Part shown: one piece after another, positions 2,191-48,949 of the stretch
How positions within the stretch are numbered: the first letter of the stretch is position 1
How the letters are laid out: each line of letters opens with the position of its first letter
NCBI RefSeq assembly: GCF_024055725.1
Contig: NZ_JAMXMX010000004.1
Coordinates: 310,001 to 374,000 of the forward strand
Length of the DNA stretch: 64,000 nucleotides
DNA from: Actinoallomurus spadix
Lineage (GTDB): Bacteria; Actinomycetota; Actinomycetes; Streptosporangiales; Streptosporangiaceae
Reading direction: 5' to 3'
The notes under the pieces: model-generated
What the model was told of the DNA's origin: nothing
What the model saw: only the letters and a program-made list of their open reading frames with translations
Database searches by the model: none
Made by a program: the position numbers and the translations under genes

Positions 2191-2616
2191 TCAGTGCGAC
2201 GTGGTGGAGATGGCGGACACCAGCTCGCCGAGCTTGTCCTCGGGCAGCTTCGCCGCCAGGTCGGCCTGGCTGATGATCCCGATCAGCTGGTCGTTCTCCA
2301 TCACGGGCAGGCGCCGGATCCGGTGCTCCGACATCTCATGCAGGACGATCTCGATGTCGGAGCCGGCGTCGACGTAGAACACCTCGCCCTCGCCGATGAG
2401 GTCTCCGGCACGGACGTCGGCGGGGTTCCTGCCCTGCGCGATGGCCTTCACGACGATGTCGCGGTCGGTGATGATCCCCTTCAGCCGGCCGTCGTTCCCG
2501 CAGACCGGCAGCGCGCCCACGTCCGACTCGGCCATGCGGCGGGCCGCGGTGGTGAGGTCCTCGTCCATCGACAGGCACTCACAACCGTGGTGCATGATCT
2601 CGCGTGCGGTTGTCAT
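2191..2616 (-). CDS. hrp1: CBS-pair protein, Hrp1 (Rv2626c) type
   Basis: 141 residues, almost entirely a CBS pair: first CBS MTTAREIMHHGCECLSMDED to about residue 60 with ITDRDIVVKA, second to the C-terminus with EHRIRRLPVMENDQLIGIIS. Start, length and many blocks (MTTAR.IM, GALP.CG, TDRDIV.K, YVDA, HRIRRLPV) match what is known of M. tuberculosis hypoxic response protein 1, one of the most strongly DosR-induced proteins. CBS pairs usually sense adenine nucleotides; the Hrp1 ligand is not settled. GAGAGGGGA precedes the ATG. It is the last gene of a leftward unit with a universal stress protein and a small coiled-coil protein. Confidence 0.9.
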   Translation of the reverse strand: MTTAREIMHHGCECLSMDEDLTTAARRMAESDVGALPVCGNDGRLKGIITDRDIVVKAIAQGRNPADVRAGDLIGEGEVFYVDAGSDIEIVLHEMSEHRIRRLPVMENDQLIGIISQADLAAKLPEDKLGELVSAISTTSH

Positions 2617-2682
2617 GATCTGTTCCCCTCTCTTCGAGCCCCTCGTCCGGGACTCGCTCTCTCCCCGTCAGTACGGGCTTGC

Positions 2683-3168
2683 TCAGGATTCGGGCGCCGG
2701 CGGCTCGTCGTCCGGCGGCTTGCCGGGGACCATCACCACCGGGCACGACGCGTAGGACAGGCAGTAGTGGCCGACCGACTGGGCGGTCAGGCGCCGCCTG
2801 CCGGGGCGGTCGTGGGTGGCCAGGACGAGCAGCGACGCGTTCCGGGCGAGCTCGACGAGGACCGGGCCCGCGGGTCCTTCGAGGATCTCGATGTCGGCGG
2901 CGACGTCCGGTGCGCATCGGCTGAGCACCTCTTCGATCGAGGCCCGGCAGCCGGCGACCACGGCCTTGCGTCTCTGCTCACGCTCATCGTGGCTGAGCAC
3001 CGCGGCCTCTCCGGGTCCCAGCTCCCACGCGTGGACGACCCGCAACCGGGAGCCCTGCCGGCGCGCCTGGTCGACGGCCCAGCGCAGCGCCGCCGTCCGG
3101 GCCGGTGACTCGTCGATCCCGACGAGGATGGGCGCGGGTTCGCCGTTGGACGGAGCATCACCGGTCAT
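2683..3168 (-). CDS. Universal stress protein, single domain
   Basis: 161 residues with one UspA domain. It opens PAPILVGIDESPARTAALRW, has the helix/strand RVVHAW, and carries an imperfect nucleotide motif near the end (VLATHDRPGRRRLTAQSVGH). The standard ATP-binding signature is G-2x-G-9x-G-S/T; here the glycines are partly replaced, so ATP binding is doubtful. The start at 3168 is chosen because AGAGGTGA lies 9-10 bp upstream; the open frame runs on to 3249 without an RBS. It sits between the coiled-coil gene and hrp1 on the same strand. Confidence 0.85.
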   Translation of the reverse strand: MTGDAPSNGEPAPILVGIDESPARTAALRWAVDQARRQGSRLRVVHAWELGPGEAAVLSHDEREQRRKAVVAGCRASIEEVLSRCAPDVAADIEILEGPAGPVLVELARNASLLVLATHDRPGRRRLTAQSVGHYCLSYASCPVVMVPGKPPDDEPPAPES

Positions 3169-3245
3169 CGCGTGGTTCACCTCTGGGCGGCCACCCGGGG
3201 CACGCCGCCGGCAGGCGCCGGGACCACCCGCCTCGCGCGAACGGC

Positions 3246-3494
3246 TCATCGCCGGGCTTCGTGGTGTTCCTCATCGCGGTGCGGATCGGTGATGAGCAGG
3301 AGTTCGTACGCGCGACGTGCCGCCTCGGCCACCGTCCTCTCCCCGGGCTCGGCCAGCGGGCCCTCCTCGAGCCCGTGCGCCAGCGACCGGATCGCCTCGG
3401 CGACCGCCTCCGTACGGGCCTCCAGTCGGGCGACGCGTTTCTCCAGGTCGGACGGGGTCGTCCCCTGGTCCGTCCGATCACCGTCTCGGATCAT
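3246..3494 (-). CDS. Small charged coiled-coil protein, unknown function
   Basis: 82 residues, no recognised family. Residues 15-65 are a continuous charged helix with heptad-like spacing (LEKRVARLEARTEAVAEAIR), and the C-terminus is rich in His, Glu and Arg (DPHRDEEHHEARR). A good RBS (GAGGGAG) precedes the ATG, and the gene leads the leftward unit with the universal stress and CBS genes, which supports it being real. It begins right at the edge of the intergenic region that carries DosR-like boxes. Confidence 0.65.
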   Translation of the reverse strand: MIRDGDRTDQGTTPSDLEKRVARLEARTEAVAEAIRSLAHGLEEGPLAEPGERTVAEAARRAYELLLITDPHRDEEHHEARR

Positions 3495-3603: not shown

Positions 3604-3684
3604 GGGTCTTTCGTCACCAGCTGCCCGTCCGCCGTCCCCGCACGGCGCGCCGACCGGTCCGCGTTCCCTTCGGGCCCTGGTCCC
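3604..3684. promoter_or_regulatory. Divergent promoter region with two DosR-like boxes
   Basis: The 335-bp gap between the leftward stress unit (start 3494) and the rightward USP gene (start 3830) holds no gene. Seen: GGGTCTTTCGTCAC at 3604-3617 (compare the mycobacterial GGGACTwwAGTCCC core) and, on the minus strand at 3671-3684, GGGACCAGGGCCCG, a weaker match. Together they could serve both directions. Binding by a DosR/DevR response regulator is inferred; the regulator gene is not in the window. Confidence 0.5.
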
Positions 3685-3829
3685 TGGGGAGACCGGCCCC
3701 TGGGACGGCAGCGGTCGTTGGTCACCGTCTCCCGGGACCTTCGCCGCGCTGACCGGCGGCCACGGAGGGAAGAACGATGGTGCCGTCCGGAGCCGGAGCC
3801 TTCGGACGGCCGAAGCGAGAGGGGGGACC

Positions 3830-4714
3830 ATGCGAGAAGCCGTCGTCGTCGGCGTCGATGGATCGACCCAGGCCCTGGCGGCCGTGGATTGGGCCGCGGC
3901 GGAGGCCGGGCGCAGACGGCTGCCGCTGCGAATCGTGCACGTCTCGACCGGCTGGGAGCGCGGTGACATCCCCGCGTATCGCGGCCGCGGGTCGCCGGAG
4001 CCGGAGAGCCCGGGGCTGCGGATCCTGGACGCGGCCGAGGAACGCGCCCGGACCTTCGCCTCGGTTCAGATCGAGCGACGGCTCGGCGTCGGGCCCGTTC
4101 CCCGGACACTCCTGGAGGAGTCGGCGGGGGGCGCGCTGCTGGTCCTGGGGCAGCGGAGTACCGGCGCCGTCACCCGGCTGCTGCTCGGCTCGGTGAGCCG
4201 GCAGGCGGCCGAACACGCCGACTGCCCGATCGTCGTCGTCCCCATGGACCCCGACCCCCGGTCCCGGCGGCCGGAGGTCGCCGTCGGGGTCGACGGCTCC
4301 GACGCGTCCGTCGACGCCGTGGGCTTCGCCCTGGAGGAGGCGGCGACGCGCGGGGTGGGCCTGCGCGCGATCCACGTGTGGAGCCGCCCGGACAGCCCAC
4401 GGGACCTGCGGCCGGTCTGCTACGACGCGCTGACGGCCGAGGAGGAGGGCGCCAGGGTCCTGTCGGAGTCCCTCGCCGGGTGGACGGCCAAGTACCCCGA
4501 CGTACCGGTGATCGAGCAGGTGGTCGAGGACCGTCCGCTCACGGTCCTCGCCGAGGCCTCACGCACGGCCGAACTCCTCGTGGTCGGCGCCAGAGGGCGG
4601 GGCGGGTTCCCCGGCCTGCGCCTCGGGTCGGTGGGCCACGCGGTGCTGCACCACGCCCGGGGACCGGTGGCCGTCGTACGGCGGTCCGGCCGCGGCGCCG
4701 GGGCCGGAGGGTGA
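3830..4714 (+). CDS. Tandem-domain universal stress protein
   Basis: 294 residues made of two UspA domains. Domain 1 starts EAVVVGVDGSTQALAAVDWA, domain 2 at about residue 147 with PEVAVGVDGSDASVDAVGFA. The C-terminal domain keeps the ATP motif VVGARGRGGFPGLRLGSVGH (G-2x-G-9x-G-S); domain 1 has a diverged one (GQRSTGAVTRLLLGSVSRQ). Two-domain USPs of this size (Rv1996, Rv2005c, Rv2623 in M. tuberculosis) bind ATP and are DosR-induced; Rv2623 slows growth. GAGAGGGGGG precedes ATG 3830. The gene is divergent from the hrp1 unit across the box-containing gap. Confidence 0.9.
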   Translation: MREAVVVGVDGSTQALAAVDWAAAEAGRRRLPLRIVHVSTGWERGDIPAYRGRGSPEPESPGLRILDAAEERARTFASVQIERRLGVGPVPRTLLEESAGGALLVLGQRSTGAVTRLLLGSVSRQAAEHADCPIVVVPMDPDPRSRRPEVAVGVDGSDASVDAVGFALEEAATRGVGLRAIHVWSRPDSPRDLRPVCYDALTAEEEGARVLSESLAGWTAKYPDVPVIEQVVEDRPLTVLAEASRTAELLVVGARGRGGFPGLRLGSVGHAVLHHARGPVAVVRRSGRGAGAGG

Positions 4715-4768: not shown

Positions 4769-5365
4769 TCACGGGTAGTGAACGACGCGGACCACGCCCG
4801 GCACGGTCTGAGCGATCACGTCGGCGATCCGCGCCGTCCTCTCGTCGCCGTCACCCCGGAGTTCGACGACGCCCTCGTGCACCGTGACCCGTGTCTCCGC
4901 CGTCTCCGCGGACAGGTCCCGGAGTGCCGCCCGTACGTCGTCGCGGATCCGTTCGTCCCCATGGGCGAGCATCCCCATCAGGTCACGGCGGCTGACGATG
5001 CCCACCACCGTGGTGTCGCGGACGACGGGAACGCTCTTGACCCCGGTGGTGATCATCACCTCGACGAGTCCCAGGACGTCGTCGGTCTCCCGCGCCGTCC
5101 GCACGTTCGGTGTCATGACCTCCTCCACCCCGGCCGGCGGCGGCGCCTCGGGCGGCGCGGCGAGACGCAGGTAGGCCCGCGGGTCCGCCTCGAACTGGCC
5201 GCGCAGCAGGTCCATCTCGCTGACGATCCCGACCATCCGGCCCTCTTCGTCGACGACCGGGGCGGCCGTGATGTTCATCTCGTACAGCAGGCGGATCGCC
5301 TGCCGGACCGTCCAGTCCCGTGGCACGGCCACCACGGGGGCCGTCATCACCTCGTGCACCAGCAT
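4769..5365 (-). CDS. CBS-pair protein with C-terminal BON domain
   Basis: 198 residues. Two CBS motifs (MLVHEVMTAPVVAVPRDWTV; VEEVMTPNVRTARETDDVLG) occupy residues 1-125, followed by a BON domain (about 135-198: IRDDVRAALRD...VTVHEGVVELRGDG...VPGVVRVVHYP). CBS-BON proteins are common in actinobacteria; BON domains are thought to bind lipid or membranes. GGAGGTGA stands just before ATG 5365, so the longer open frame to 5422 is not used. It is convergent with the USP gene and has a DosR-like box 50-63 bp upstream, which places it with the dormancy set. Confidence 0.88.
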   Translation of the reverse strand: MLVHEVMTAPVVAVPRDWTVRQAIRLLYEMNITAAPVVDEEGRMVGIVSEMDLLRGQFEADPRAYLRLAAPPEAPPPAGVEEVMTPNVRTARETDDVLGLVEVMITTGVKSVPVVRDTTVVGIVSRRDLMGMLAHGDERIRDDVRAALRDLSAETAETRVTVHEGVVELRGDGDERTARIADVIAQTVPGVVRVVHYP

Positions 5366-5414
5366 CCCGTTCACCTCCACTCTCCATCCCACCTGCCCGT
5401 TCCCTCTCGGGCGA

Positions 5415-5428
5415 GAGGCCAAGGTCCC
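5415..5428 (-). promoter_or_regulatory. DosR-like box upstream of the CBS-BON gene
   Basis: On the minus strand this reads GGGACCTTGGCCTC, matching the GGGACC...G.C.C pattern seen at other stress promoters in the window. It ends 50 bp before the ATG at 5365, a usual activator distance. Binding is inferred. Confidence 0.5.
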
Positions 5429-5464: not shown

Positions 5465-6586
5465 TCAGGTCACCGGGTGCCCGGCGAGGAGGACCTCGCG
5501 GACGTCCAGCGTGGTGTCCCCCGGCCGCCAGGCGAAGGTGATCAGGTCGGCGGGCCGGCCGAGCCGCAGCAGGCCGCGGCCGCCGGTGAAACGCCCGGGA
5601 TTGGCCGTCGCGAGGCGCAGCCCGGTGGCGAGGGTCAGACCGGCCATCGTGATCGCCGTCGCGACCCCGTCGGCGAGAGAGCGGGAGGCGCCGGCCAGCA
5701 GTGGCGTGCCGACGTAGGACAGCCGCCCGTCGGCCGACAGTTCCACGTCCCCGCCCACCGGGGTCCGGTACCGCCCCGGGGACATGCCGGCGAGGGCCGT
5801 CGCGTCGGACACCAGGTGGGAGCGCTCGACGCCCTTGGCGCGCAGCATGACGCGGAACGTGTCGGCGGGCAGGTGGTGCCCGTCCGCGATGAACCCGGCG
5901 TGCAGACGGTCGTCGGCGAGCTGGGTCCACAGGTGGTTCGGATGCCGGGGCAGCACGGTGTAGGTGGCGTTGCCCAGGTGCGTGGCGAGTTCGGCGCCGG
6001 CGTCGACCGCCCGGGTGATCTGCTCGGGCGTGGCGTGGGTGTGCCCGATCGCGCAGCGCACGCCCATGCGGGTGGCGGCGGCGATGAAGTCGATCGCGGC
6101 GTCGTCGTGCGGCGAGACGGTGACCATGCCGACGAGGTCGCCCCAGCGGCGCAGCTCCGCGACGTCGGCGGGCCGCAGGTACCGCGGGTCGTGCACGCCG
6201 CGCGGGCCGTCCTCCGCCGAGAGGAACGGTCCCTCCACGTGGACGTAGGGGATCGCGTGGGCGACGAGCGGGTCGGCCCGGCGGGCCCGCGCGATCGCCG
6301 ACAGCGCCGCGTGAACGCGCTCCTCGGGCGCGGTCACGAGCGTCGGGACGAGCGTGGTCGTCCCGGTACGGCCCACGGCGCGCACGAGCGCGGCCACCGT
6401 GGCCTCGTCGACGTCGGCGGCGTTCACGTCGTGCCCGGCGAACCCGTTGACCTGCAGGTCGACCAGGCCGGGCGCGAGCCACCGGTCCGCGGGCCCGCCG
6501 GCCTCGGTGATCGCGCCGATCCGCCCGTCCTCGACGGTCACACACAGCGTGCGCCCGGTCGCCGGGTCCCGGCCGCTGATCCTCAC
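5465..6586 (-). CDS. nagA: N-acetylglucosamine-6-phosphate deacetylase
   Basis: 373 residues. Removes acetate from GlcNAc-6-P to give GlcN-6-P in the cytoplasm. The amidohydrolase barrel shows the first metal-ligand segment VHVEGPFLS, the His pair in AIGHTHATPEQI and ATHLGNATY, and the catalytic Asp in HLVSDATALAGM; ANPGRF near the end is typical of NagA. The start is GTG 6586, whose last two bases are shared with the TGA of nagB (GTGA), so the two are translationally coupled. The product feeds directly into NagB. The last 10 codons keep the C-terminal beta-sandwich (ADLITFAWRPGD). Confidence 0.93.
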   Translation of the reverse strand: MRISGRDPATGRTLCVTVEDGRIGAITEAGGPADRWLAPGLVDLQVNGFAGHDVNAADVDEATVAALVRAVGRTGTTTLVPTLVTAPEERVHAALSAIARARRADPLVAHAIPYVHVEGPFLSAEDGPRGVHDPRYLRPADVAELRRWGDLVGMVTVSPHDDAAIDFIAAATRMGVRCAIGHTHATPEQITRAVDAGAELATHLGNATYTVLPRHPNHLWTQLADDRLHAGFIADGHHLPADTFRVMLRAKGVERSHLVSDATALAGMSPGRYRTPVGGDVELSADGRLSYVGTPLLAGASRSLADGVATAITMAGLTLATGLRLATANPGRFTGGRGLLRLGRPADLITFAWRPGDTTLDVREVLLAGHPVT

Positions 6587-7344
6587 CGGGGCGCGGATTC
6601 CTCGTCCACGTACACGACGCAGCGCGGGTGGGTGCGCAGCGCGCTCGCGGGCAGGTGCCCGCCGATCGGGCCGCGCAGCGCGGCGGTCACGGCATCGCGC
6701 TTGCGGGCGCCGGGGACCATGCAGAAGACCTCGTCGGCCGCGAGCAGCGCCGGGACGGTCAGGGTGATCGCCCGGCGGGGCACCTGGTCCAGGACCGCGA
6801 AGCAGCCGTCGTCGACCTGCTGCCGGCGGCAGACCTCGTCGAGCTCGACGACCTTGACGGGCACGGGGTCGGCCAGGTCGGCGGGCGGGTCGTTGAACGC
6901 CAGGTGCCCGTTGACGCCGATCCCCAGGCAGGTGATGTCGATCGGCGCGGCCGTCAGCAGCCGGGCGTACGCCTCGGGGGGCGCGTCCGGGTCGATCAGG
7001 TGCACCGCGCCGAGCGGCACCCGGTCGAAGAACGCCCGGCGCAGCCACGCGCCGAAGCGCTGCGGGGCGCCGGTGTCCAGGCTGAGGTACTCGTCCATGT
7101 GGAACGCGGTCACCCGTGTCCAGTCGACGCCCGGATGCTCCGCCAGCGCGCGGAGCGTCGCCTCCTGGCTGGGCGCCGCGGCGAAGATCATCCGGACCTC
7201 GGGCCGGGCCGCCAGCCGCGTGATGATCGCCGCGGCGATGTCCCGCGCGGCGGCGCGCCCCAGCTCCTCGGCGTCGGGGAACCGGCGGAGGACGGGTTCG
7301 TACGTCGCGGCGTCCGGCCGCTCTGCGTCTGTCATCGCGGCCAC
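6583..7344 (-). CDS. nagB: Glucosamine-6-phosphate deaminase
   Basis: 253 residues. Converts GlcN-6-P to fructose-6-P and ammonia. Catalytic parts are visible: TAFHMDEYLSLD (catalytic Asp), GIGVNGHLAFNDPP (His of the active-site lid), and the phosphate-binding FAAAPSQEA segment. GTG 7344 has GGAG 4 bp upstream; an in-frame ATG at 7335 is the alternative. It lies 22 bp after the LysR gene on the same strand and overlaps nagA by 4 bp. No PTS or ABC transporter for GlcNAc and no DasR-type operator were seen nearby. Confidence 0.92.
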   Translation of the reverse strand: MAAMTDAERPDAATYEPVLRRFPDAEELGRAAARDIAAAIITRLAARPEVRMIFAAAPSQEATLRALAEHPGVDWTRVTAFHMDEYLSLDTGAPQRFGAWLRRAFFDRVPLGAVHLIDPDAPPEAYARLLTAAPIDITCLGIGVNGHLAFNDPPADLADPVPVKVVELDEVCRRQQVDDGCFAVLDQVPRRAITLTVPALLAADEVFCMVPGARKRDAVTAALRGPIGGHLPASALRTHPRCVVYVDEESAPR

Positions 7345-7366
7345 GGTACTCCGCGCCCGCGCGACC

Positions 7367-11519: not shown

Positions 11520-12529
11520 CCGAGACCCCGACGATCGACGTGCACGCGCACGTCCTCCTGCCCCAGGTCGAGGAGGCCGTCGCCGGGCGGTCCGGCCTGG
11601 CCGCCGCCCGTGAACTGGACGCCCGCCGCAACGGCCCCGACGCCCTCGCCGTCAGCGCGGCGATGATCCGCGAGCGGATCCCGAGGCTCACGGACGTCAC
11701 CGCGCGGCTCGCCGCGATGGACGCCGCGGGCGTCGACGTGCAGCTCGTCTCGCCCTCCCCGTCGCACTACCACTACTGGGCGGAACCCGACCTCGCCCGT
11801 ACGGTGTGGCGGCTCGCGAACGCCGGCACCGCCGCGCACTGCGCCCAGGCGCCCGGCCGGCTGTACGGCCTGGGCCTCGTCCCACTGCAGCACCCGGACC
11901 TGGCCGCCGAGGCGCTGGACGACGCCCTGGGCCACGGGCTGCGCGGTGTGGAGATCTCCAGTCACGCGCCGGGCCGGGAGCTGTCCGACCCCGCGTACGA
12001 GCCGTTCTGGGCCCGTGCGGAGGAGACGGAGGCGATCGTGTTCCTGCATCCGTTCGGGTGCACGCTCGACGAGCGCCTGGACCGGTGGTACTTGTCGAAC
12101 ACCGTCGGCCAGCCCACCGAGAACGCCGTCGCCCTGTCGCACCTGATCTTCTCCGGCGTCCTCGACCGCCACCCCGGGCTGAAGATCATCGCCGCGCACG
12201 GCGGCGGCTACCTGCCCACCCACATCGGCCGCTCCGACCACGCCTGGCGGGCCCGCTCCGACGCCCGCGGCTGCGCCCACCCGCCCGGCACGTACCTGCG
12301 GCGGCTCCACTTCGACTCCCTCGTCCACGACCCGCACGTGCTGCGGGAGCTCGTCCGCGTCGCGGGCGCCGACCGGGTGCTGCTCGGCTCGGACTTCCCG
12401 TTCGACATGGGCACCGAGGACCCGCTCGGCGCGCTGCGCGCCGCGGGCCTGCCCGCCCCCGACCACGACGCCGTACGCGGCGGCAACGCCGCCGCGCTCC
12501 TGCGCCTCGACCGAGGAGAACAGCCATGA
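11516..12529 (+). CDS. Amidohydrolase-2 family protein (ACMSD/resorcylate decarboxylase type)
   Basis: 337 residues. Metal ligands of the ACMSD group are visible: IDVHAHVLLP at the N-terminus, VFLHPFGCTL in the middle, IIAAHGGGYLP and the late Asp in VLLGSDFPFDMG. Known relatives decarboxylate aromatic or muconate-type acids without cofactor, or hydrolyse C-C bonds. GTG 11516 overlaps the preceding stop (GTGA) and the stop overlaps the next ATG (ATGA), so this is a tightly coupled operon gene. A decarboxylase role is the likeliest in a ring-degradation set (inference). Confidence 0.87.
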   Translation: MTETPTIDVHAHVLLPQVEEAVAGRSGLAAARELDARRNGPDALAVSAAMIRERIPRLTDVTARLAAMDAAGVDVQLVSPSPSHYHYWAEPDLARTVWRLANAGTAAHCAQAPGRLYGLGLVPLQHPDLAAEALDDALGHGLRGVEISSHAPGRELSDPAYEPFWARAEETEAIVFLHPFGCTLDERLDRWYLSNTVGQPTENAVALSHLIFSGVLDRHPGLKIIAAHGGGYLPTHIGRSDHAWRARSDARGCAHPPGTYLRRLHFDSLVHDPHVLRELVRVAGADRVLLGSDFPFDMGTEDPLGALRAAGLPAPDHDAVRGGNAAALLRLDRGEQP

Positions 12530-13464: not shown

Positions 13465-13488
13465 CCGCCCGTCTCCGAAGGAAGACCC

Positions 13489-14433: not shown

Positions 14434-14473
14434 CCAGGCTGGGAAGGAGCGTCGCGCTCCGGGGATGACTCCA

Positions 14474-14515
14474 GGGTGATCCGGAGCAGCCCCTCCAGAC
14501 TGCTCCGGATCACCC
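14474..14515 (+). terminator. Terminator hairpin of the ring-cleavage operon
   Basis: A perfect 16-bp inverted repeat (GGGTGATCCGGAGCAG at 14474-14489 and its complement at 14500-14515) with a 10-nt loop, 40 bp after the last catabolic gene. No U tract follows. Confidence 0.8.
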
Positions 14516-14713
14516 CGGGCGGTACCGCCCCTACCGAACCGCCCCCGCGTGTCCGGTGATGAGACGGCGCTGATGGAAGATGGCCACGGCGCGCTGAGGC
14601 CCTTACAGGGAACCCTCCGGCGGCCGTTTCCGGCTACCCCCGGATTCGGGGATGGCCGCGCCGGAGAGGCGGGTCCTACACTCGCCGACCATGAGCACTG
14701 GCAGCGTGCCCCG

Positions 14714-35289: not shown

Positions 35290-35388
35290 GGGACCTTCGG
35301 CCCGACACGACCCGGGGCAGCGCCCGATCCGGCTTTCGGCGCCGTTACCGGCAAAGGGACCTTTACTCCGGCAAGGGACAGAAGTCCC
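35290..35388. promoter_or_regulatory. Cluster of three DosR-like boxes in a divergent promoter
   Basis: Seen on the plus strand: GGGACCTTCGGCCC (35290-35303), GGGACCTTTACTCC (35356-35369) and GGGACAGAAGTCCC (35375-35388). The first and last are near-perfect dyads matching the mycobacterial DosR core. An additional GTCCCATGTGGGAC (35276-35289) touches the first. They lie in the 329-bp gap between the P-type ATPase (leftward) and the HAD gene (rightward). No gene is seen in this gap. Binding is inferred. Confidence 0.65.
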
Positions 35389-35487
35389 CGGACGCAGGGG
35401 AATTCCGCCCCTACGACCCGGCCGGGGAATCGCCTGAAGTGAAAGTGCGAGCCGAAGTTCGGGTGCGAGCCGAGAGGGGTGAGGCGG

Positions 35488-37207: not shown

Positions 37208-37221
37208 AGGCCGAAGGTCCT
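37208..37221 (-). promoter_or_regulatory. DosR-like box between USP and GH65 genes
   Basis: Minus strand AGGACCTTCGGCCT; the inner 12 bases GGACCTTCGGCC are identical to those of the box at 35290-35303. It lies 81 bp before the GH65 start and 82 bp before the USP start, so it could serve both. Confidence 0.6.
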
Positions 37222-39737: not shown

Positions 39738-40181
39738 TCACGACCGCCGGTCGCAGGCGAGCGCGGTGATCCGGTCGGCCACCTCCGTGACCGCGCGGCG
39801 CACCGGCGGGCTCAGGCCGGAGCCGAAGCCGAACTCCACGCCCTCGATGCCGTAGACGCGGAGGTCACCGGGCATCCGGCCGAGGATCCGCCCCAGCTCC
39901 GCGGCCAGGTCGACGCTGAGACCGTGACAGCTCGTGTCGGCGTGCGTTCCGGTCGGGAGCTCGGCGGCCTCGTGCACGTGGCCCGGACCGCTGGCGGGCG
40001 AGACCGCATCGACGACCACGGCGAGGTCCGCGCCGTTCCACAGCTCCATGAGCTGGACGGGTTCGCCGTCGCACGTCGCGAGCCGGACGTCCGGCGGGCA
40101 GCGGCCGCGCAGCTCGCGGACCACCGCCAGGCCGGCTCCGTCGTCCCGGCGCAGATCGTTGCCCACTCCGATGACGATCAT
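39738..40181 (-). CDS. Hydrogenase maturation protease (HycI/HyaD type)
   Basis: 147 residues. Cuts the C-terminal tail off the large hydrogenase subunit after Ni insertion. Starts [20 protein letters not shown] with the conserved GNxxRxDDG and Ni-sensing Asp; VVVDAVSP holds the second Asp and ADTSCHGLSVDLA the His. ATG 40181 overlaps the TGA of the large-subunit gene (ATGA). Last gene of the hydrogenase operon. Having its own protease is expected, because the large subunit keeps a C-terminal extension. Confidence 0.92.
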   Translation of the reverse strand: MIVIGVGNDLRRDDGAGLAVVRELRGRCPPDVRLATCDGEPVQLMELWNGADLAVVVDAVSPASGPGHVHEAAELPTGTHADTSCHGLSVDLAAELGRILGRMPGDLRVYGIEGVEFGFGSGLSPPVRRAVTEVADRITALACDRRS

Positions 40182-41470
40182 GATCGGACCACCTTCAGGT
40201 CGAGAAAGTGCGCCGCGCAGGAGATGCACGGGTCGTAGCTGCGGATCGTCCGTTCGCACGCCGAGGTGAGCGCGGCGTCGTCCAGGTCGAGGCGATCCTG
40301 CACCAGGCGGCGCAGGTCCTCCTCGATCGCCGCCTGGTTCTGGGAGGTCGGCGGGACGATCCGGGCCGAGGTCAGCAGGCCCTCGCCGTCGAGGTCGTAC
40401 CGGTGGTACAGCAGTCCGCGCGGCGCCTCGGTCGCGCCGTGCCCGCGGCCTGCCCGTGCCCGCACCGGGACGTACGGCGGCGGAGGCTCATAGGAGGCGA
40501 TGACGCGCAGGGCCTCCTCGACCGCGTGAACGATCTCGACGGCGCGTACGACGATGCTCTGGAACGGGTTCCGGCACTCGTGGCCGAGACCGGCGTCGGC
40601 GGCGGCCTCGTGGGCCAGCGGAGACAGGCGGTCGCGGTTCAGCGCGAACCGCGCCAGCGGCCCGGTGAGGTACCGGCCGCCGTGCACCAGCCGGGAGTGC
40701 AGGGCGGTCGAGTGCGGCACCTGGTACTCGGCGACCTCGTCCTCGAAGTCCGCGACCTCGAACGCGGCGCCCGTCGTGGTCCGGGGCGTGCCACGCTCCA
40801 GGGGGTACTCCTCGCCGGTCAGGGCCAGGAACTCGTGGTCGAACGTCAGGTCGGGGAAGTCGAAGCCGGCCACCCAGCGCACCGTGGCCAGCGCGTCCTC
40901 CAGGGCCCTGCGGAGGCCCGGCACGAGCCCGCGCAGCTCCCGGGGCGTGGGGACCCGGTGGAAACCGCCGACCCGTACGTTGACCGGGTGGATCGCGCGG
41001 CCGCCGAGCAGCTCGATGATCGCGTTGCCGGTCTTCTTCAGCTCGAGGCCGCGTTCGACCAGCGGCCGGTAGGCGCGGGCCATCTCGACCGCGCTCGGAT
41101 AGCCGAGGAAGTCCGGGGCGTGCAGCAGGTAGATGTGCAGGGCGTGACTCGAGATCCACTCCCCGCAGTACATCAGGCGCCGCAGGTCCCCCAGCGGCCC
41201 GTCGACCGCGACGCCGCACGCCGACTCCACGGCCCGGCAGGCGCTCATCTGGTAGGCGACGGGGCAGATGCCGCAGATCCGCGAGGTGATGTCCGGTGGT
41301 TCGGTGTACGCCCGGCCGCGGAGGAACGCCTCGAAGAACCGCGGCGGCTCGTAGATGTTCAGCAGGATCTCCTCGACACGGTCCCCGGCGACCCGCACCT
41401 GCATCGCCCCCTCGCCCTCCACCCGCGCCAGGGCGCCGATGTTCAGGGTCCGCTCATGCCGGTGGGTCAT
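40178..41470 (-). CDS. hyhL: [NiFe] hydrogenase large subunit, group 3b (alpha)
   Basis: 430 residues. Carries the Ni-Fe centre: proximal Cys66 and Cys69 in [12 protein letters not shown], and Cys415 and Cys418 in [11 protein letters not shown] near the C-terminus. The 8-9 residues after His421 (LDLKVVRS) form the tail removed on maturation. The length and [18 protein letters not shown] blocks fit the cytoplasmic bidirectional NADP-linked group. It makes or uses H2 with the FAD and Fe-S subunits encoded upstream. Its start overlaps the small-subunit gene by 17 bp. Hyp maturation genes are not in the window. Confidence 0.95.
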
Positions 41471-42215
41471 CGGGCACCTCCGTGAAGGCCGTGACGTTGA
41501 ACGTGGCGAACATCCGGTCCATCTCGGGCCGCGCCAGGCCGATGTCGCCGAGCCAGGTCTTCAGCGAGCCGGTGTTGGGCCGGGCGGAGGGGCCGAAGCA
41601 GCCGTAGCAGCCGCGCCCGTAGGCGGGGCAGATCGCTCCGCAGCCGGTGTGCGTGACCGGCCCCAGGCAGGGCGTGCCGTGGGCGACCATGACGCAGACG
41701 TTCCCGCGCATCTTGCACTCGAAGCAGACCGGGTGGTTCGGGATGCCGGGCCGGCGCCCGGCCAGGTAGGCGGACAGCACCTCCAGGAGCTGGCCCCGGT
41801 CGATCGGGCAGCCGCGCAGCTCGAAGTCGACCGGCACGTGCGCCGAGATCGGCGTCGACTCGGCCAGCGTGGCGACGTACTCGGGCCGGGCGTACACCAC
41901 CGACCGGTACTCCTCCACGTCGGCGAAGTTGCGGAGCGCCTGGATGCCGCCGGCGGTGGCGCAGGCCCCGATCGTGACGAGCCGCCGCGAGATCCGCCGG
42001 ACCTCCTTGATCCGTTCCGCGTCGGCCGGGGTCGAGATCGACCCCTCGACGAGCGACACGTCGTACGGGCCCTCCGTCACGGCGCTGGACGCCTCGAGGA
42101 AGTGCGCGATCTCGACCTCGCCCGCCAGGGTCAGGAGCTCGTCCTCGCAGTCCAGGAGGGTGAGCTGGCAGCCGTCGCAGGAGGCGAACTTCCACACGGC
42201 GAGTTTCGGGGCCAT
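41454..42215 (-). CDS. hyhS: [NiFe] hydrogenase small subunit, group 3b (delta)
   Basis: 253 residues. Holds the electron-transfer Fe-S clusters. Proximal-cluster Cys in [18 protein letters not shown], then [17 protein letters not shown] and [14 protein letters not shown]. The medial/distal cluster Cys are in [20 protein letters not shown] and [22 protein letters not shown]. No Tat signal, consistent with a cytoplasmic enzyme. ATG 42215 shares one base with the stop of the FAD subunit (TGATG), so synthesis is coupled. Confidence 0.95.
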
Positions 42216-43018
42216 CACCGCTCCTTGACGCGAAGCTCCGAGGCGACGTCCCGGTAGGGCACGACCGGGCCGTCGCGGCAGACCAGCCGGAGGCCGAGCT
42301 GGCAGTGGCCGCACCATCCGACGCCGCAGCGCATGTTCCGTTCGAGGGAGATCCGCACGTCGGTCAGCCCCTTGGCCTCCAGGGCCTCCGCGGTGAACCG
42401 CATCATGATCTCCGGGCCGCAGACGAAGGCCGTGGCGTTCGGCGGGTCGGCGCAGACGAGGTTTACGAGCGAGGTGATCAGCCCGACGTGCCCGCGCCAG
42501 CCGTCGTCGGCGTGGTCGACCGTCACCTCGACCCGCGCGCCCCGCTCGCGCCATTCGTCGAGTTCGGCCCGGTAGACCAGGTCGGCGGGGGTACGGGCGC
42601 CGATGAGCACGGTGATCGCGCCGTAGGACGCGCGCCGCCGCAGCGCGTACAGCAGGGCGGGGCGCAGCGGCGCGAGCCCGATCCCTCCTCCGGCGAAGAC
42701 CAGGTCCCGGCCGACCGCGTCCTCGACGCCCCACCCGGCACCGTACGGCCCCCGGAGGCCGATCATCCGGCCGGGCGCGCTCCCGGCCAGCGCGCGGCTG
42801 ACCGCGCCGACGTCGCGGACCGTCTGCTCCATGACCGTGCCGGTCCGGCTGACGGAGATGGGCGCCTCCCCGACGCCGAACGCGTACATCATCGTGAACT
42901 GGCCGGGTCGTACGGGCGGGATCGGCGCGCCGCACGGCCGCAGGACGAGCGTCGCGGTGTCGCGAGTCTCCTCCCGGCGTTCGGTCACCCGGTACGGGAC
43001 CGGGGTCATGGCCGTCAT
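42215..43018 (-). CDS. hyhG: Group 3b hydrogenase FAD/NAD(P)-binding subunit (gamma)
   Basis: 267 residues, ferredoxin-NADP reductase/DHODH-B-like. FAD segment [23 protein letters not shown](P) segment [31 protein letters not shown], and four C-terminal Cys for a [2Fe-2S] cluster ([15 protein letters not shown]...LVCRDG). It links hydrogen turnover to the nicotinamide pool. Start ATG 43018 overlaps the stop of the cNMP-domain gene (ATGA); a second ATG three codons on is possible. Confidence 0.93.
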
Positions 43019-43495
43019 CCGTCCCGTCCCCAGGGCGCGCCGTACAGGTCGAGGAGCCGCATGCGGGTGTTCTGCAGCCGGTCGAGCATGACGGCGGCGA
43101 ACCGGCGCGTCAGCTCGTATCCCAGGGCGGGGTCCTCGGCGCACATCACGCGCACCGCCCTGGCGTCCAGGGCGATCGCCCGGACCGGCTCGGCCGCGAG
43201 CGCCCCGAACCGCCAGGCGTACGGCGGGAAGAGCCACGACCAGCCGAGCACGGTGCCCCGCCCGAGCGTCTCGACGATCACGGGGCCGCGGCCCGGGATG
43301 TGCAGGTCGAGGGTGACCCGGCCGGCCTGGATCAGCCAGAACCGGTCCGCGCTGCGGCCCTCCTCGAACAGGCGGTGCCCGGCGGGGACCTGGACGTACC
43401 GCGCGACCTCCGCCAGCCGGTCGACCTGGTCTTCCGGCAGTCCCCGGGCGAAGGCGTGCGCGGCCAGTGCGGAGCGCGGCACCGCGGTCGTTCGT

Positions 43496-43503
<8 letters not shown>
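43015..43503 (-). CDS. Cyclic-nucleotide-binding (Crp-like) protein without DNA-binding domain
   Basis: 162 residues: one cNMP-binding beta-roll (about 15-135: [40 protein letters not shown]) and a C-terminal helix ([20 protein letters not shown]), then it stops. The winged HTH of Crp/Fnr proteins is absent. It lies inside the hydrogenase operon, overlapping both neighbours by 4-8 bp, so it is made with the enzyme. A stand-alone sensor that binds the hydrogenase is one reading; similar genes accompany other actinobacterial group 3b operons. The phosphate-binding loop (usually GE...RxA) is diverged, so cyclic nucleotide binding is doubtful. Confidence 0.85.
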
Positions 43504-44602
<1,099 letters not shown>

Positions 44603-44667: not shown

Positions 44668-44711
44668 GGGCCCGAAGTCCCTCCCGCCCGGGCCGCTCGG
44701 TCCGAAGGCCC
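44668..44711 (-). promoter_or_regulatory. Pair of DosR-like boxes upstream of the hydrogenase operon
   Basis: Minus strand: GGGACTTCGGGCCC (44668-44681) and GGGCCTTCGGACCG (44698-44711), 16 bp apart, so both face the same side of the helix roughly three turns apart (30 bp start to start). They end 66 bp before the first hydrogenase start codon, a typical activator layout. M. smegmatis group 3b hydrogenase is known to be DosR-dependent; direct control here is inferred. Confidence 0.65.
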
Positions 44712-44748: not shown

Positions 44749-47352
44749 TCAGCGAAGCCGGCGGAGGTGGGGATCCCAGTGCCGGGCCGGGACGACCCGG
44801 ACCCGCGCGCCGGCGACCACGACGCCCGCGGGCCGGGCGATGACGGGGTCCAGGTCGACCTCGGCGATGTCCGGGTGGTCGTCGGCGAGCCGGGACAGGC
44901 GCAGCAGGACGTCCTCGACCGCGGCGGTGTCCACCACGGGCGCGCCGTGGTGGCCGAACAGCAGGGGCGCGCCGCGTACCGAGCGGATCAGCTCGGCGGC
45001 GTCCACGTCGGTGAGCGGGGTGAGCCGGGCGGCCCGGTCGCCGAGCACCTCCGTGGCCGCCCCGCCCAGGCCGAAGACGACCAGGGGCCCGAAGACCGGC
45101 TCCTGCACGATCCCGCACCGGAGCTCCACCTCCCCGGTGGCCGTCCGCCGCGCGCCGGCGGAGGGTTCCGGGCCGGGACCCGCCGGGGGCAGCCCGTAGG
45201 CAGCCAGGAGCTCCGGCACGTCGGCGGGCGGGAGCGGGCCGCCCTCCGGGGACTCGTCGAGGAAGCGGCGGATGATCCGGGTGACCGTGTCCTCCCGGAC
45301 GTCGGGAAGAACGGGTTCGCTCCCGGCCGGGCGTTCGAGCCACCGGCCGTGGGAGCGGGCGTGGCCGAGTGCGCGGGCCGCGTCCTCGGGGAAGGCGTAC
45401 GAGGGGACGCGGCGTCCGCCGGGCCCGTACCGTACGCGCACCGACTCGGGCTGGCCGAGGACGACCGCCGTGAACGGCTTGGCGGCTCCTCCGGCCGCGA
45501 CGGCGGCGGTCAGGTCGGAGAGGGCCGTGGGGACGACCAGGGCGAGGACGGCGTCCACCCCGTCGTCGGCGGCGACCAGGTCCAGGCAGCGCGTGAACCG
45601 TTCGGGGTCGATCGCCGCGGTCGTGTCGACCGGGCCGGCGCAGGCGGCCCCGCGCGGCAGCAGCCGCGTCAGCCTGCGGACGGTCTCCTCGCTCAGCGCC
45701 GCGGTGGTCAGGCCGACGTCGGCGCAGGCGTCGGCGGCCAGCACGCCCGCCCCTCCGGCGTTCGCGACGATCGCGACCCGGTCCCCGGCCGGTACCGGCT
45801 GGTGGGCGAGCAGGGCGGCGGTGTCGAGCAGTTCGCCGAGGCCGTGCGTCGCGGTGATTCCCGCCTGCCGGAACAGCGCCTCCTGGGTCACCGCCGAGGT
45901 CGGTCCGGCCGCGTGGGAGGTTGCCGCCCGCCGCCCGGCCGCCGACCGTCCCGCGACGACGGTGAGCAGCGGCACGCGGCGGCCGACGCGCCGGGCGGTC
46001 CGCGCGAACTTGCGCGGGTTGCCGTACGACTCGACGTGCAGGACGCCCAGCCGCGTCGCCGGGTCGGCCTCCCACCACAGCAGGAGATCGTTGCTGCTGA
46101 CGTCGTACTTGTCGCCGACCGAGGCGAAGGACGACACGCCGACGTCCAGCCGGGACAGGTGGTCCCGCAGCGCGATGCCGACGCCGCCGGACTGCGCGAC
46201 GATCCCGGCCGCGCCGGGCCGCACCGGGAGCGCGGCGAACGTCGCGTCGAGCCGTACGGCGCTGTTGGCGACGCCGTGGCTGCCGGGCCCCACCAGCCGC
46301 ATGCCGTACCGTCGGCAGGTCGCGAGCAGGGCGGGACCGTCCCCGCCCGGCGTGATCACCACGAGGGCCCGCACGCCCCGCCGCCCGCACTCCTCCGCGA
46401 CCTCGGCCAGGGACTCCGGCGGCACCGCGAGCACGGCGAGTTCCGGGGCCTCCGGCAGGGCGGCCACCGAGGGCGCGCACGGCACGCCCGCGAGCCGGGT
46501 CCCCGCCCGGGGGTCCACCACGGACACCGCGCCCGGGAAACGCCCGGAGACCAGGGTGCGCAGGATCGCCCCGCCGGCCGGTCCGGCGCCGACGACCGCG
46601 ATGGACGCCGGGCAGAGCAGGTGGCGCAGGCTGGCGACGTCCGCGGAACGCTCCCGCTCGGCGACCGCGTCGAGGTACCGCCCGTCCAGCGTCAGCGGCA
46701 TCCGCACGTCGACCACGCCGCCCGCGACGCCGCGCTCGACGGTGAGCCCCGCGGAGGCGAAGACGCGCAGCATCACGGCGTTCTGCAGCAGGGTGTCGGC
46801 GCGGAACTCACGGACGCCGCGCGCGCGGGCCAGCGACACCAGGTGTTCCAGCAGCAGCGTGCCGACGCCGCGGTGGTGCATCGCGTCCGCGACGGCGAGC
46901 GCGATCTCCGCGGCGCCGGGAACGCCGGCGGGCTCGTAGTTCGCGACGCCGATGAGGTCCTCGCCCAGCCAGGCGCCGAGGACGGCGTGGTCCGGGCCGG
47001 GCGCGCGGCACAGGCGCTCGGAGGTCTCGTCGGCGAGGCGCGGGCTGAGGCCGAAGAAGCGCAGGTAAAGGTTGTCCGGTGACATGCCGCGGTGCAGGTC
47101 CCGGACGGCGGCGAGGTCTCCGGGGCCGATCTGCCGGATCCGGACCGCCGTGCCGTCGATGAGCAGCGCGAACGCCGGCTCGTCGGGCGGTCGCCCGGGG
47201 ACGGGGACCGGTGCGGCCGCGGCGGCGTGCTCCACCGGGTGTCCGGGGACGGGGACCGGTGCGGCCGCGGCGGCGTCCTCCGGCGGGTGTCCGGGGACGC
47301 GGTCCGGTGCGGCGGCGGGGGCGTGCTCCGGCAGGCGCGCTGGTTCGACCAT
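44749..47352 (-). CDS. GNAT acetyltransferase / ADP-forming acyl-CoA ligase fusion
   Basis: 867 residues. Low-complexity N-terminus of three 16-residue repeats (8-55), GNAT domain at about 65-215 (AEIALAVADAMHHRGVGTLL is the acetyl-CoA loop), CoA-binding Rossmann domain (ASIAVVGAGPAGGAILRTLV), succinyl-CoA ligase-like flavodoxin part (GIVAQSGGVGIALRDHLSRL) and C-terminal ATP-grasp (VFGPLVVFGLGGAATEVLGD; DLDPVIARP). Proteins of this layout are Pat-type lysine acetylases or acyl-CoA synthetases; enzymatic proof is needed to choose. It follows the hydrogenase boxes in the stress island. The ATG at 47352 has only a weak RBS. Confidence 0.85.
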   Translation of the reverse strand: MVEPARLPEHAPAAAPDRVPGHPPEDAAAAAPVPVPGHPVEHAAAAAPVPVPGRPPDEPAFALLIDGTAVRIRQIGPGDLAAVRDLHRGMSPDNLYLRFFGLSPRLADETSERLCRAPGPDHAVLGAWLGEDLIGVANYEPAGVPGAAEIALAVADAMHHRGVGTLLLEHLVSLARARGVREFRADTLLQNAVMLRVFASAGLTVERGVAGGVVDVRMPLTLDGRYLDAVAERERSADVASLRHLLCPASIAVVGAGPAGGAILRTLVSGRFPGAVSVVDPRAGTRLAGVPCAPSVAALPEAPELAVLAVPPESLAEVAEECGRRGVRALVVITPGGDGPALLATCRRYGMRLVGPGSHGVANSAVRLDATFAALPVRPGAAGIVAQSGGVGIALRDHLSRLDVGVSSFASVGDKYDVSSNDLLLWWEADPATRLGVLHVESYGNPRKFARTARRVGRRVPLLTVVAGRSAAGRRAATSHAAGPTSAVTQEALFRQAGITATHGLGELLDTAALLAHQPVPAGDRVAIVANAGGAGVLAADACADVGLTTAALSEETVRRLTRLLPRGAACAGPVDTTAAIDPERFTRCLDLVAADDGVDAVLALVVPTALSDLTAAVAAGGAAKPFTAVVLGQPESVRVRYGPGGRRVPSYAFPEDAARALGHARSHGRWLERPAGSEPVLPDVREDTVTRIIRRFLDESPEGGPLPPADVPELLAAYGLPPAGPGPEPSAGARRTATGEVELRCGIVQEPVFGPLVVFGLGGAATEVLGDRAARLTPLTDVDAAELIRSVRGAPLLFGHHGAPVVDTAAVEDVLLRLSRLADDHPDIAEVDLDPVIARPAGVVVAGARVRVVPARHWDPHLRRLR
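47188..47331 (-). repeat. Three 48-bp tandem repeats inside the GNAT/ligase gene
   Basis: The repeats encode PEHAPAAAPDRVPGHP, PEDAAAAAPVPVPGHP and VEHAAAAAPVPVPGRP. Units two and three are nearly identical at DNA level. They form a flexible Pro/Ala arm before the GNAT domain and probably vary in number among strains. Confidence 0.8.
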
Positions 47353-47389
47353 GTCTCACAGCCTCGACCGGCCGGAACCTCCCCGGAAA

Positions 47390-47425
47390 GGGCTCAAGGC
47401 CATCTCTCCGGGGGACCGACGCCCC
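47390..47425 (+). promoter_or_regulatory. DosR-like boxes before the APH/AAA gene
   Basis: GGGACCGACGCCCC (47412-47425) fits the GGGACC....CCC pattern; GGGCTCAAGGCCAT (47390-47403) is a weaker second site 8 bp away. They end 36 bp before ATG 47462 and also lie upstream of the leftward GNAT/ligase gene. Confidence 0.5.
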
Positions 47426-47461
47426 TGTTCGGCCCGCGTCCTCCCGCGCGAGGCTGCGACC

Positions 47462-48949
47462 ATGGGGACCTGGGGTACGGACGTCGCCGAGACGCATTCG
47501 GGCGTCGTGTTCTTCTTCGGAGACCGCGCCTACAAACTCAAGAAGCCGGTCGACCTCGGCTTCCTGGACTTCTCCACCCGCGAGCTGCGCGAACGCGCGT
47601 GTCACCGCGAGGTCGACCTGAACCGCCGGTTCGCGCCCGACGTGTACCTGGGCGTCGCCGACGTGAGCATGCCGCCGGGGACGCCGCGCGACCACCTCGT
47701 CGTCATGCGCCGGATGCCCGCCGACCGCCGCCTGTCCGATCTCGTCCGGGCGCACGCCCCGGTCGACGACGCCCTGCGGGCGGTCGCGCGCCTGCTCGCC
47801 CGCGCCCACGCCGCCTCCCCGCACACGGCCGCGATCTCCGCCGAGGGGAGCCGGGACGCCCTGTGCGCCCGGTGGACCGCGAGCTTCGACCAGGTTCGCC
47901 CGTTTCACGGGCGCGCCATCGACGCCGACGACGCCGCGGAGGTGGAGCGCCTGACGCTGCGCTTCCTGGAGTTCCGGGAGCCGCTGTTCGACGCCCGGAT
48001 CCGCGAGGGGCGCGTGGTCGACGGGCACGGCGACCTGATGGCCGACGACATCTTCTGCCTCGACGACGGTCCCCGCGTGCTGGACTGCCTTGACTTCGAC
48101 GACCGCCTGCGGTGGCTCGACGGCCTCGACGACGCCGCGTTCCTCGCCATGGACCTGGAACGCCTCGGCTCGCCGGATCTCGCCCGGCGCTTCGTCTCCT
48201 GGTACGCCGAGTACGCCGACGACCCGGCCCCGCCGTCGCTGCGGCACCACTACGTGGCCTACCGCGCGTTCGTCCGCGCCAAGGTCGCGTGCCTCCGCTG
48301 GGACCAGGGCGACACCCGCGCGGCCGGGGACGCCGGCCGGTACACCGAGATCGCGCTGCGGCACCTGAACGCCGGCTCGGTCGGCCTGATCCTGGTCGGC
48401 GGTCTGCCCGGAACCGGCAAGAGCGCCCTCAGCGAGGCCCTCGGCGACCGCCTCGGCCACACCGTCCTGAACAGCGATCGCGTCCGTAAGGAACTCGCCG
48501 AGCTGTCCCCCGAGACGCCTGCCCGGGCCCCGTACGGCACGGGCCTCTACGACGCCTCCTGGACCCGCCGCACGTACACCGAGCTCCTCGACCGCGCCGC
48601 GCGGCTGCTCTCCTACGGCGAGTCCGTCATCGTCGACGCCTCCTGGACCTCCGCGGAGCACCGGGCCGACGCCGCCCGCCTCGCCGACCGGGCGCGCGCG
48701 GACCTGGTCCAGCTGCGCTGTGACAGCCCGCTGGCCGGCGAGCGCCTGCTCACCCGCCCGCGCGGCGTGTCCGACGCCGACCCGGAGATCGCCGCGTTCA
48801 TGGCCGAAGCGGCCGCCCCGTGGCCGGAGGCCGCCACCATCGACACGTCCGGGCCGGTCGGGGACGCCGTCGAACGCGCCCTGGCCGTGATCCGGCCGCA
48901 CGGACCCGAGCCCGCCTGGCACCGCCTCCCGCGCCTGTCCCCGGGCTGA
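47462..48949 (+). CDS. Fused APH-like kinase and AAA ATPase, Rv2004c type
   Basis: 495 residues. N-terminal aminoglycoside-phosphotransferase-like domain: FGDRAYKLKKPVDLGFLDFS (Lys of the ATP site) and catalytic loop VDGHGDLMADDIFCLDDG with His189-Gly-Asp191, then CLDFDD as metal site. C-terminal P-loop kinase (Walker A GGLPGTGKSAL at about 313-322; LNSDRVRKEL; IVDASWTS). Length and order match M. tuberculosis Rv2004c (498 residues), a DosR-regulated protein of unknown substrate. ATG 47462 is used because similarity begins there. The loop Asn is replaced by Asp (DD in place of xN). The tail of the gene is part of an 18-bp tandem repeat. Confidence 0.88.
   Translation: MGTWGTDVAETHSGVVFFFGDRAYKLKKPVDLGFLDFSTRELRERACHREVDLNRRFAPDVYLGVADVSMPPGTPRDHLVVMRRMPADRRLSDLVRAHAPVDDALRAVARLLARAHAASPHTAAISAEGSRDALCARWTASFDQVRPFHGRAIDADDAAEVERLTLRFLEFREPLFDARIREGRVVDGHGDLMADDIFCLDDGPRVLDCLDFDDRLRWLDGLDDAAFLAMDLERLGSPDLARRFVSWYAEYADDPAPPSLRHHYVAYRAFVRAKVACLRWDQGDTRAAGDAGRYTEIALRHLNAGSVGLILVGGLPGTGKSALSEALGDRLGHTVLNSDRVRKELAELSPETPARAPYGTGLYDASWTRRTYTELLDRAARLLSYGESVIVDASWTSAEHRADAARLADRARADLVQLRCDSPLAGERLLTRPRGVSDADPEIAAFMAEAAAPWPEAATIDTSGPVGDAVERALAVIRPHGPEPAWHRLPRLSPG

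Follow-up and report, generated by a model that had tools for sequence, protein, structure and literature searches.

DevR regulons (DevR is also called DosR or, in Streptomyces, OsdR) have been studied by experiment in mycobacteria and Streptomyces, and for Rhodococcus equi one has been predicted. Mycobacterium tuberculosis promoters join a high-affinity site to an adjacent low-affinity one, with cooperative binding (PMC3029386), the Hyh and Hhy hydrogenases of Mycobacterium smegmatis belong to its dos regulon (PMC8125079), Streptomyces coelicolor encodes the DevR/DevS orthologues OsdR and OsdK (PMC5069765), and for R. equi a list of putative DosR units outside the mycobacteria is given with the consensus NNNGGGHCNWWNGNCCCBNN (PMC2947987). 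Here we analyse a 64,000-nucleotide stretch of Actinoallomurus spadix (contig NZ_JAMXMX010000004.1, positions 310,001 to 374,000; the window), in which a sequence-only reading had proposed that genes between positions 2,191 and 48,949 form an ancient, collinear dormancy regulon of DosR/DevR type. We consider it highly likely that genes of the window belong to a DevR (DosR/OsdR) regulon. It would be a known kind of regulon in another lineage, since the regulon of S. coelicolor OsdR overlaps with it and DosR boxes are predicted in R. equi, and to that extent the supposed antiquity is borne out in part. Its membership may perhaps extend here to a hydrogenase of 3b type, an acyltransferase/ligase, a small 82-amino-acid (82-aa) protein and fermentation genes.

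Homologues of devR and devS were located on three contigs, C50, C41 and C44 (the last, of 399,327 bp, carries the window), and all lie outside the window. For the protein on C50, the match to M. tuberculosis DevR (3c3w) covers residues 3-211 at 1e-78, and a second DevR copy at C41:15429 is 82% identical to this protein. A DevS-type kinase at C44:254413-256140 combines GAF domains with HisKA_3; the first of its GAF domains gives a 1.8e-53 match to DevS (2y8h) and retains the HPPM histidine, which we take to be the heme ligand. A further kinase at C44:147317 matches DosT/DevS more weakly and is without the HPPM segment. Directly downstream of devR, a short sequence is repeated every 15 bp (C50, ~2170-2240).

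The box consensus first proposed, GGGACyttcGGCCC, was too loose as written: with up to 3 mismatches the window holds 41 matches against 36.7 (sd 6.0) expected from shuffles, a number reached by 28 of 100 shuffles, and its matches are thus no more than chance. When a matrix was built solely from published OsdR sites, many G+C-rich positions on C44 scored no lower than likely sites, and because it failed to separate the two we adopted an A/T-centred strict core, GGGACYWWNGKCCC, against which all mismatches of window boxes are scored. This core falls within the DosR consensus GGGHCNWWNGNCCC quoted for R. equi (PMC2947987) and is identical to published OsdR sites at SCO0216, SCO0167 and SCO5979 (PMC5069765). 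Counted as strand hits over the 8.0-Mb genome, the exact core occurs 21 times, at 14 places, vs 2 for the reversed pattern (one or two places), whereas with up to 1 mismatch it falls below that control (128 vs 159). Near-matches alone were dropped as a mark of the regulon for that reason, and single weak sites need other support because the one-mismatch core loses enrichment; within 2 mismatches, the core is found in 39 of 329 upstream regions on C44. Weak sites alone are not significant, and it is conservation and pairing that set the sites apart.

The boxes are tied to DevR by their distribution across relatives. A mismatch-free box lies upstream of devR itself (C50:3056), and a box within 1 mismatch occurs in the 350 bp before devR at 25 of 30 loci examined, or 24 of 29 without our own genome, vs 11 of 329 C44 promoters, a background that includes dormancy genes. 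With DevR, its paralogue, DevS and a DevS-like kinase encoded, and a box so regularly placed before devR, the assignment to a DosR/DevR-type system is supported. Twenty 20-kb DevR stretches, chosen by us from the DevR match list, contain 22 exact boxes vs 0 reversed (65 vs 8 within 1 mismatch); an exact box is present in 14 of them and a box within 1 mismatch in all 20, while in eleven control stretches of C44, each also 20 kb long, there are 0 exact boxes and 4 within one mismatch (1 reversed). A DevR match at 1e-60 is present in 51 of 60 genomes, counting ours, and these 51 give 378 strand hits vs 228 for the control, compared with 24 vs 43 in the nine without DevR (own genome left out, Fisher p 1e-4 and Mann-Whitney p 0.013, both rough values, as the genomes are related and some are incomplete). 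Across 25 stretches, a box within 1 mismatch stands in the 460 bp upstream of 61 of 128 query-family genes vs 32 of 306 other genes, although the 27 query proteins came from the window and from genes beside boxes in this genome, and 17 of the 61 are DevR itself. Counted by box, 58 of 86 precede a query-family gene, 18 only other genes and 10 none.

These distributions bear on whether the boxes might be read by another LuxR-type response regulator, in which case the genes would have a box in common without answering to the DevR signal. The genome has 52 HisKA_3 matches, implying many such two-component systems, and the second DevR-like protein could take part of the sites. The clustering of boxes round DevR genes in the 20 stretches and their match to published OsdR sites nevertheless make a regulator other than DevR improbable.

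Within the genome, nine of the 14 exact places adjoin dormancy-type genes, and these are spread over six contigs (C23, C28, C41, C42, C44 and C50). They comprise C50:3056, between the DevR gene and a universal stress protein (USP) gene; C44:256918, near DevS, flanked by a DoxX-like gene and a Zn-alcohol dehydrogenase; C44:147343, within a phosphoketolase/acetate-kinase/DevS-like/USP run; C44:152604, between that run and PNPOx/CBS genes; C44:345290, which is window position 35290; C41:3250, with a USP on one side and an MFS transporter/nitrate reductase run on the other; C42:1287, preceding a second DoxX-like gene together with an Acg-like gene (our label; Pfam gives a marginal Nitroreductase match only); C23:81198, near HAD and USP genes; and C28:8667, before PNPOx. 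Four of the 14 fall on C44, a contig of 5% of the genome (p 0.004), three of them within gaps that precede genes. If one mismatch is allowed, 12 of 17 core places on C44 lie in gaps, which make up 14.4% of the contig as defined by our own gene caller (binomial p 2e-7). Ten sites within 1 mismatch are upstream of genes, and nine, in five gaps, adjoin dormancy-type genes. The earlier statement that sites occur only in gaps bordering stress genes thus holds for nine of the ten, the tenth being window 17073-17086 (1 mismatch, a damaged arm), before a Ser/Thr kinase gene (15541-17043). This kinase is no known dormancy gene. The picture of a regulon assembled in one chromosomal stretch is not supported: the boxes by dormancy-type genes are scattered over contigs, devR and devS lie elsewhere, and the window between 5.5 and 31.2 kb is taken up by other genes, of which 18 of the 23 called were family-searched and none appeared to be dormancy-type.

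The window boxes are conserved well beyond their surroundings. Against the nearest relative used, G001 (DevR 97%, GH65 94%, hydrogenase beta subunit 94%), we cut seven upstream regions at orthologous starts and took one box from each, leaving out 44698. These seven keep 94 of 98 bases vs 690 of 1080 outside the boxes (96% vs 64%). Taken singly, the boxes retain 14/14 bases before the 82-aa gene (rest of the region, 53%), the hydrogenase (60%) and the AAA protein (62%), and 13/14 before CBS-BON (71%), the ATPase (66%), HAD (71%) and between USP and GH65 (78%). All eight main sites first listed, 44698 included, keep 105 of 112 bases, while two of the weaker ones, 3671 and 35356, keep only 9/14.

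The boxes also tend to come in pairs. We scanned for partners of 183 boxes (up to 1 mismatch) from C44, the relatives' loci and actinobacterial hydrogenase loci, and a second box within 3 mismatches lies at 21, 22 and 23 bp 16, 26 and 25 times (67 in total, pairs in which both boxes qualify counting twice), with ~0.7 expected per offset and ~2 in all; other offsets from 9 to 60 have 0 to 5 partner boxes each. For C44 the count at these three offsets is 12 pair hits, spread over 9 places, vs 1, 2, 3, 4 and 8 at five control sets. Five candidate pairs lie in the window (3712/3734, 35268/35290, 35375/35398, 44668/44690 and 47390/47412), their partner boxes being weak, with 3 to 4 mismatches.

It might be argued that all of these are chance matches, of which a G+C-rich genome offers many, and that the sequence-only reading simply picked those beside stress genes. 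The chance-level counts of its consensus in the window and of the one-mismatch core genome-wide would fit this account. Box conservation, the 21-23 bp pairing, the exact-core enrichment (in the genome and in the DevR stretches) and the retention of boxes on both sides of a breakpoint between ATPase and HAD genes in G001 speak against it, and we regard chance as very improbable. The boxes are real, with conservation and pairing as their marks, although the consensus first given for them is not distinctive. Measured against the strict core, the main sites first listed range from no mismatch at 35290 through one each at 35375 and 44668 and two each at 3604, 5415, 37208 and 47412 to three at 44698. 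Their coordinates and flanking genes were correct, and domains were found for CBS, USP, CBS-BON, P-type ATPase, HAD, GH65, [NiFe]-hydrogenase, GNAT/CoA-ligase and AAA.

By gene, the upstream boxes of the ATPase, HAD, hydrogenase and AAA protein are well supported, that of the 82-aa run is good, and those of GH65 and CBS-BON are weak. The P-type II cation ATPase (32420-35158, minus strand; E1-E2 ATPase and Cation_ATPase_C; TIGR01522 at 2.3e-158, below its cut-off) is presumably CtpF-like, and on its side of the gap lie tandem boxes at 35268-35303 (plus strand, 22 bp apart, 4 and 0 mismatches), which include the only first-listed site with a perfect core and are kept 12/14 and 13/14 in G001, again beside the ATPase. 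On the other side, tandem boxes at 35375-35411 (23 bp apart, 1 and 3 mismatches) face a HAD hydrolase (35488-36240, plus strand; PF00702 7.2e-10) and are kept 13/14 and 11/14 beside HAD in G001, where ~8 kb separates the two genes and each retains a box of its own. A rubrerythrin-family gene (31591-32394) adjoins the ATPase, with no box within 2 mismatches here; a rubrerythrin-family gene near the hydrogenase in another relative, G003, has a 2-mismatch box upstream. At the far end, tandem boxes at 47390-47425 (plus strand, 22 bp apart, 4 and 2 mismatches; 13/14 and 14/14 kept in G001) separate a GNAT acyltransferase fused to an ADP-forming CoA ligase (44749-47352, minus strand, by domain matches) from a P-loop AAA_33 protein (47462-48949, plus strand; 1.3e-17), which we take to be Rv2004c-like. 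The first of this pair had been listed as a weaker site. For the APH half of the APH/AAA label given to the P-loop gene, no matching domain was found in 47462-48949. In G003 a perfect core precedes the AAA gene, and the GNAT/ligase gene (884 aa called) has 1- and 2-mismatch boxes ~100 and ~55 bp upstream. A formate/nitrite transporter gene (50963-51829) lies beside the cluster, and the gap that precedes it is free of boxes within 2 mismatches. The proposed collinearity is not supported by gene order in G001 and G003: beyond the ATPase/HAD break, no GNAT/ligase match was found in the 60-kb region of G001 examined, where the hydrogenase and AAA-protein boxes persist, and G003 is rearranged relative to the window.

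The remaining units are less even. An 82-aa protein without a Pfam match (3246-3494; a putative coiled-coil protein in the earlier reading), a USP (2683-3180; Usp 2e-23) and a Hrp1-like protein with two CBS domains (2191-2616; best PDB match Rv2626c, E 2.6e-31) form a run on the minus strand, with the 82-aa gene first and the Hrp1-like gene last, in an order identical in G001. Its weak box (3604-3617, plus strand, 2 mismatches) is 14/14 identical in G001, where the counterpart of the divergent two-domain USP gene (3830-4714, plus strand; Usp 1.9e-48, two stretches) is not adjacent, yet the box stays with the 82-aa run. Homologues of the 82-aa protein occur in 4 of 59 relatives, their best upstream boxes having 2, 3, 1 and 1 mismatches. 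Before the divergent USP gene, candidate tandem boxes at 3712-3747 (plus strand, 22 bp apart, 3 and 2 mismatches in register) are kept 6/14 and 11/14 in G001. Next comes the CBS-BON protein (4769-5380, minus strand; CBS and BON domains), with a weak box at 5415-5428 (minus strand, 2 mismatches; 13/14 kept in G001). A second two-domain USP (36260-37126, minus strand; Usp 8.2e-59; TB31.7, E 1.4e-36) and the GH65 enzyme (37302-39719, plus strand; Glyco_hydro_65m 1.3e-130) lie on either side of the box at 37208-37221 (minus strand, 2 mismatches here and 1 in G001), whose 13/14 conservation says little because the remainder of that gap is 78% identical. A box before GH65 was dropped as a general feature of the relatives, their GH65 upstream regions being unenriched (4 of 22 within 2 mismatches, p 0.28). 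HAD and GH65 matches are side by side in three relatives (G003, G005 and G039) and ~0.8 kb apart in a fourth (G043).

It may accordingly be that membership is partial, with 35290/35375, 44668 and 47412 real DevR promoters and 5415, 37208 and 3712/3734 not, which would leave CBS-BON, GH65 and the USP at 3830 outside the regulon. The 5415 box has, besides its 2 mismatches, one arm shifted by one base in G001, 37208 gains little from conservation and GH65 boxes are unenriched, and 3712 is supported by spacing alone. Against this stand 1-mismatch boxes at a CBS-BON-like gene in G039 and at another CBS-BON gene on C44 (267431), and a GH65 gene with two 1-mismatch boxes in G035. We think partial membership somewhat unlikely, though deserving of real weight. 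Among the new members proposed earlier, a plausible case exists for the 82-aa protein and the GNAT/ligase, while CBS-BON is weak, as a box within 2 mismatches precedes it in 4 of 8 relatives and none better than 4 mismatches is found in 3 of 8.

The [NiFe]-hydrogenase run (39738-44602, minus strand) encodes beta, cNMP-binding, gamma, delta and alpha proteins and a HycI-type protease. Its predicted alpha, beta, gamma and delta subunits are of sulfhydrogenase type, a type placed in group 3b, to which this enzyme may belong: sulfhydrogenase models are the best NCBIfam matches for alpha, beta and delta, and AsrB and a cytochrome-c3 hydrogenase gamma model for gamma (HydG fourth), all with scores below equivalog cut-offs. 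Before the run stand tandem boxes at 44668-44703 (22 bp apart, 1 and 4 mismatches), kept 14/14 and 12/14 in G001; the site first placed at 44698 (44698/44699) has 3 mismatches and is kept 11/14. Among beta-subunit upstream regions of our genome and 10 relatives, a box occurs within 1 mismatch in 5 of 11 and within 2 in 9 of 11 (8 of 10 without our own, vs the 39 of 329 C44 promoters). We also compared the best 80 of 567 named hydrogenase loci, 42 actinobacterial by title and 38 not, two of the latter being too short for the box counts; this control is rough, its loci being mostly poorer in G+C and some having short flanks. The OsdR matrix finds a site before the hydrogenase in 11/42 actinobacterial vs 2/36 other loci at p<=0.05 and 7/42 vs 0/36 at p<=0.01, a matrix from devR promoters in 9/42 vs 2/36 and 5 vs 1 at the same thresholds, and the strict core in 6/42 vs 0/36 within 1 mismatch and 11/42 vs 5/36 within 2. 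A USP match lies in the flanks of 20/42 actinobacterial vs 0/38 other loci. The best named match among those listed is from Actinomadura litoris, at 74%.

Outside the window, the boxes adjoin several fermentation-type runs. On C44, phosphoketolase, acetate kinase, the DevS-like kinase without the heme-site segment and a USP (146377-152474) lie behind boxes at 152604, 152657 and 152709. On C41, the second DevR-like gene, a DoxX-like gene, pyruvate-formate lyase and a 264-aa gene (11613-16070) are accompanied by a 1-mismatch box at 15365, which precedes the DoxX-like gene and adjoins the DevR paralogue; nitrate reductase is on the other side. The small DoxX-like protein has three copies, each adjoining a box (at 6256-6822 of locus L007, at 14703-15269 on C41 and at 1505-2071 of locus L111); of the two scanned with Pfam, one scored 4.4e-4, below the cut-off, and the other nothing. 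Phosphoketolase is present in 7 of 20 DevR stretches, and across the 25 stretches a box precedes 4 of 8 phosphoketolase genes, the single pyruvate-formate lyase gene (1/1) and 6 of 7 DoxX-like genes.

Regulators, boxes, conservation, spacing and gene context can all be read from the DNA itself. By analogy with the systems of M. tuberculosis and S. coelicolor, the course from signal to activation would be as follows: low oxygen or NO would cause the DevS-type heme-GAF kinase on C44 to phosphorylate the C50 DevR, and perhaps its C41 paralogue; phospho-DevR would bind palindromic boxes arranged in tandem at a spacing of 21-23 bp, or about two turns of the helix; and the bound units (ATPase, HAD, USP/GH65, hydrogenase, AAA protein and 82-aa/USP/Hrp1) would be switched on together. 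Several observations weigh against a DevR regulon of this form, namely the loss of enrichment at one mismatch, the unenriched GH65 regions, the patchiness of the hydrogenase box in named actinobacteria (11/42 at p<=0.05 with the OsdR matrix), the pairing of DevS with DevR, which is assumed for genes on three contigs, and the five exact places, at four loci (C22, C69 and two on C66), where no dormancy-type neighbour was seen within ~3 kb (the C66:60931/60952 pair, C66:286363, C22:186326 and C69:24311).

A bolder proposal, on which we are nearly evenly divided but lean slightly against, is that in this lineage DevR commands a whole anaerobic programme beyond dormancy, taking in an NAD(P)-linked hydrogenase, nitrate reductase, pyruvate-formate lyase, the phosphoketolase/acetate-kinase run with its heme-site-less kinase and the DoxX-like family, through paired boxes 21-23 bp apart. 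If true, DevR would govern fermentation and the movement of H2 in a soil actinomycete whose group is generally regarded as aerobic. The boxes would tie hydrogenase and fermentation genes to DevR, and the combination of box and spacing may help to read other actinomycete regulons. Among the matches listed in our literature search, no title or abstract start concerned a DevR regulon in this actinomycete group, which does not prove its absence in print.

With M. tuberculosis the system shares Hrp1 and TB31.7-type proteins and a heme-GAF kinase. HAD and GH65 are separate genes here and presumably fused in Rv2006, and to our knowledge the hydrogenase, GNAT/ligase, pyruvate-formate lyase and phosphoketolase are not in the M. 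tuberculosis DosR regulon. Several close-packed Dev boxes per promoter are a further likeness, bound cooperatively in that species (PMC3029386). The M. smegmatis dos regulon likewise includes hydrogenase (PMC8125079), in another genus and gene order, the link being drawn here from sequence alone. The R. equi boxes are predictions only, and that paper remarks on an unexpected phosphoketolase, with no statement in the passages cited that ties it to DosR (PMC2947987). The OsdR system of S. coelicolor (PMC5069765) has the exact core GGGACCTTCGGCCC among its sites, a site before osdR itself, as before devR here, and a regulon with USPs, PPDK and pyridoxamine-phosphate-oxidase-like, nitroreductase and nitrate reductase genes; it differs in its consensus, AGGGCCGATCGGCCCT, in the 0 occurrences of "hydrogenase" in the main text of the paper, and in a Table 1 without GH65, phosphoketolase or pyruvate-formate lyase. 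Set beside these systems, what A. spadix seems to add is a further actinomycete lineage to which DevR regulons extend, the hydrogenase, GNAT/ligase and 82-aa units within the window, and phosphoketolase, pyruvate-formate lyase and the DoxX-like family outside it.

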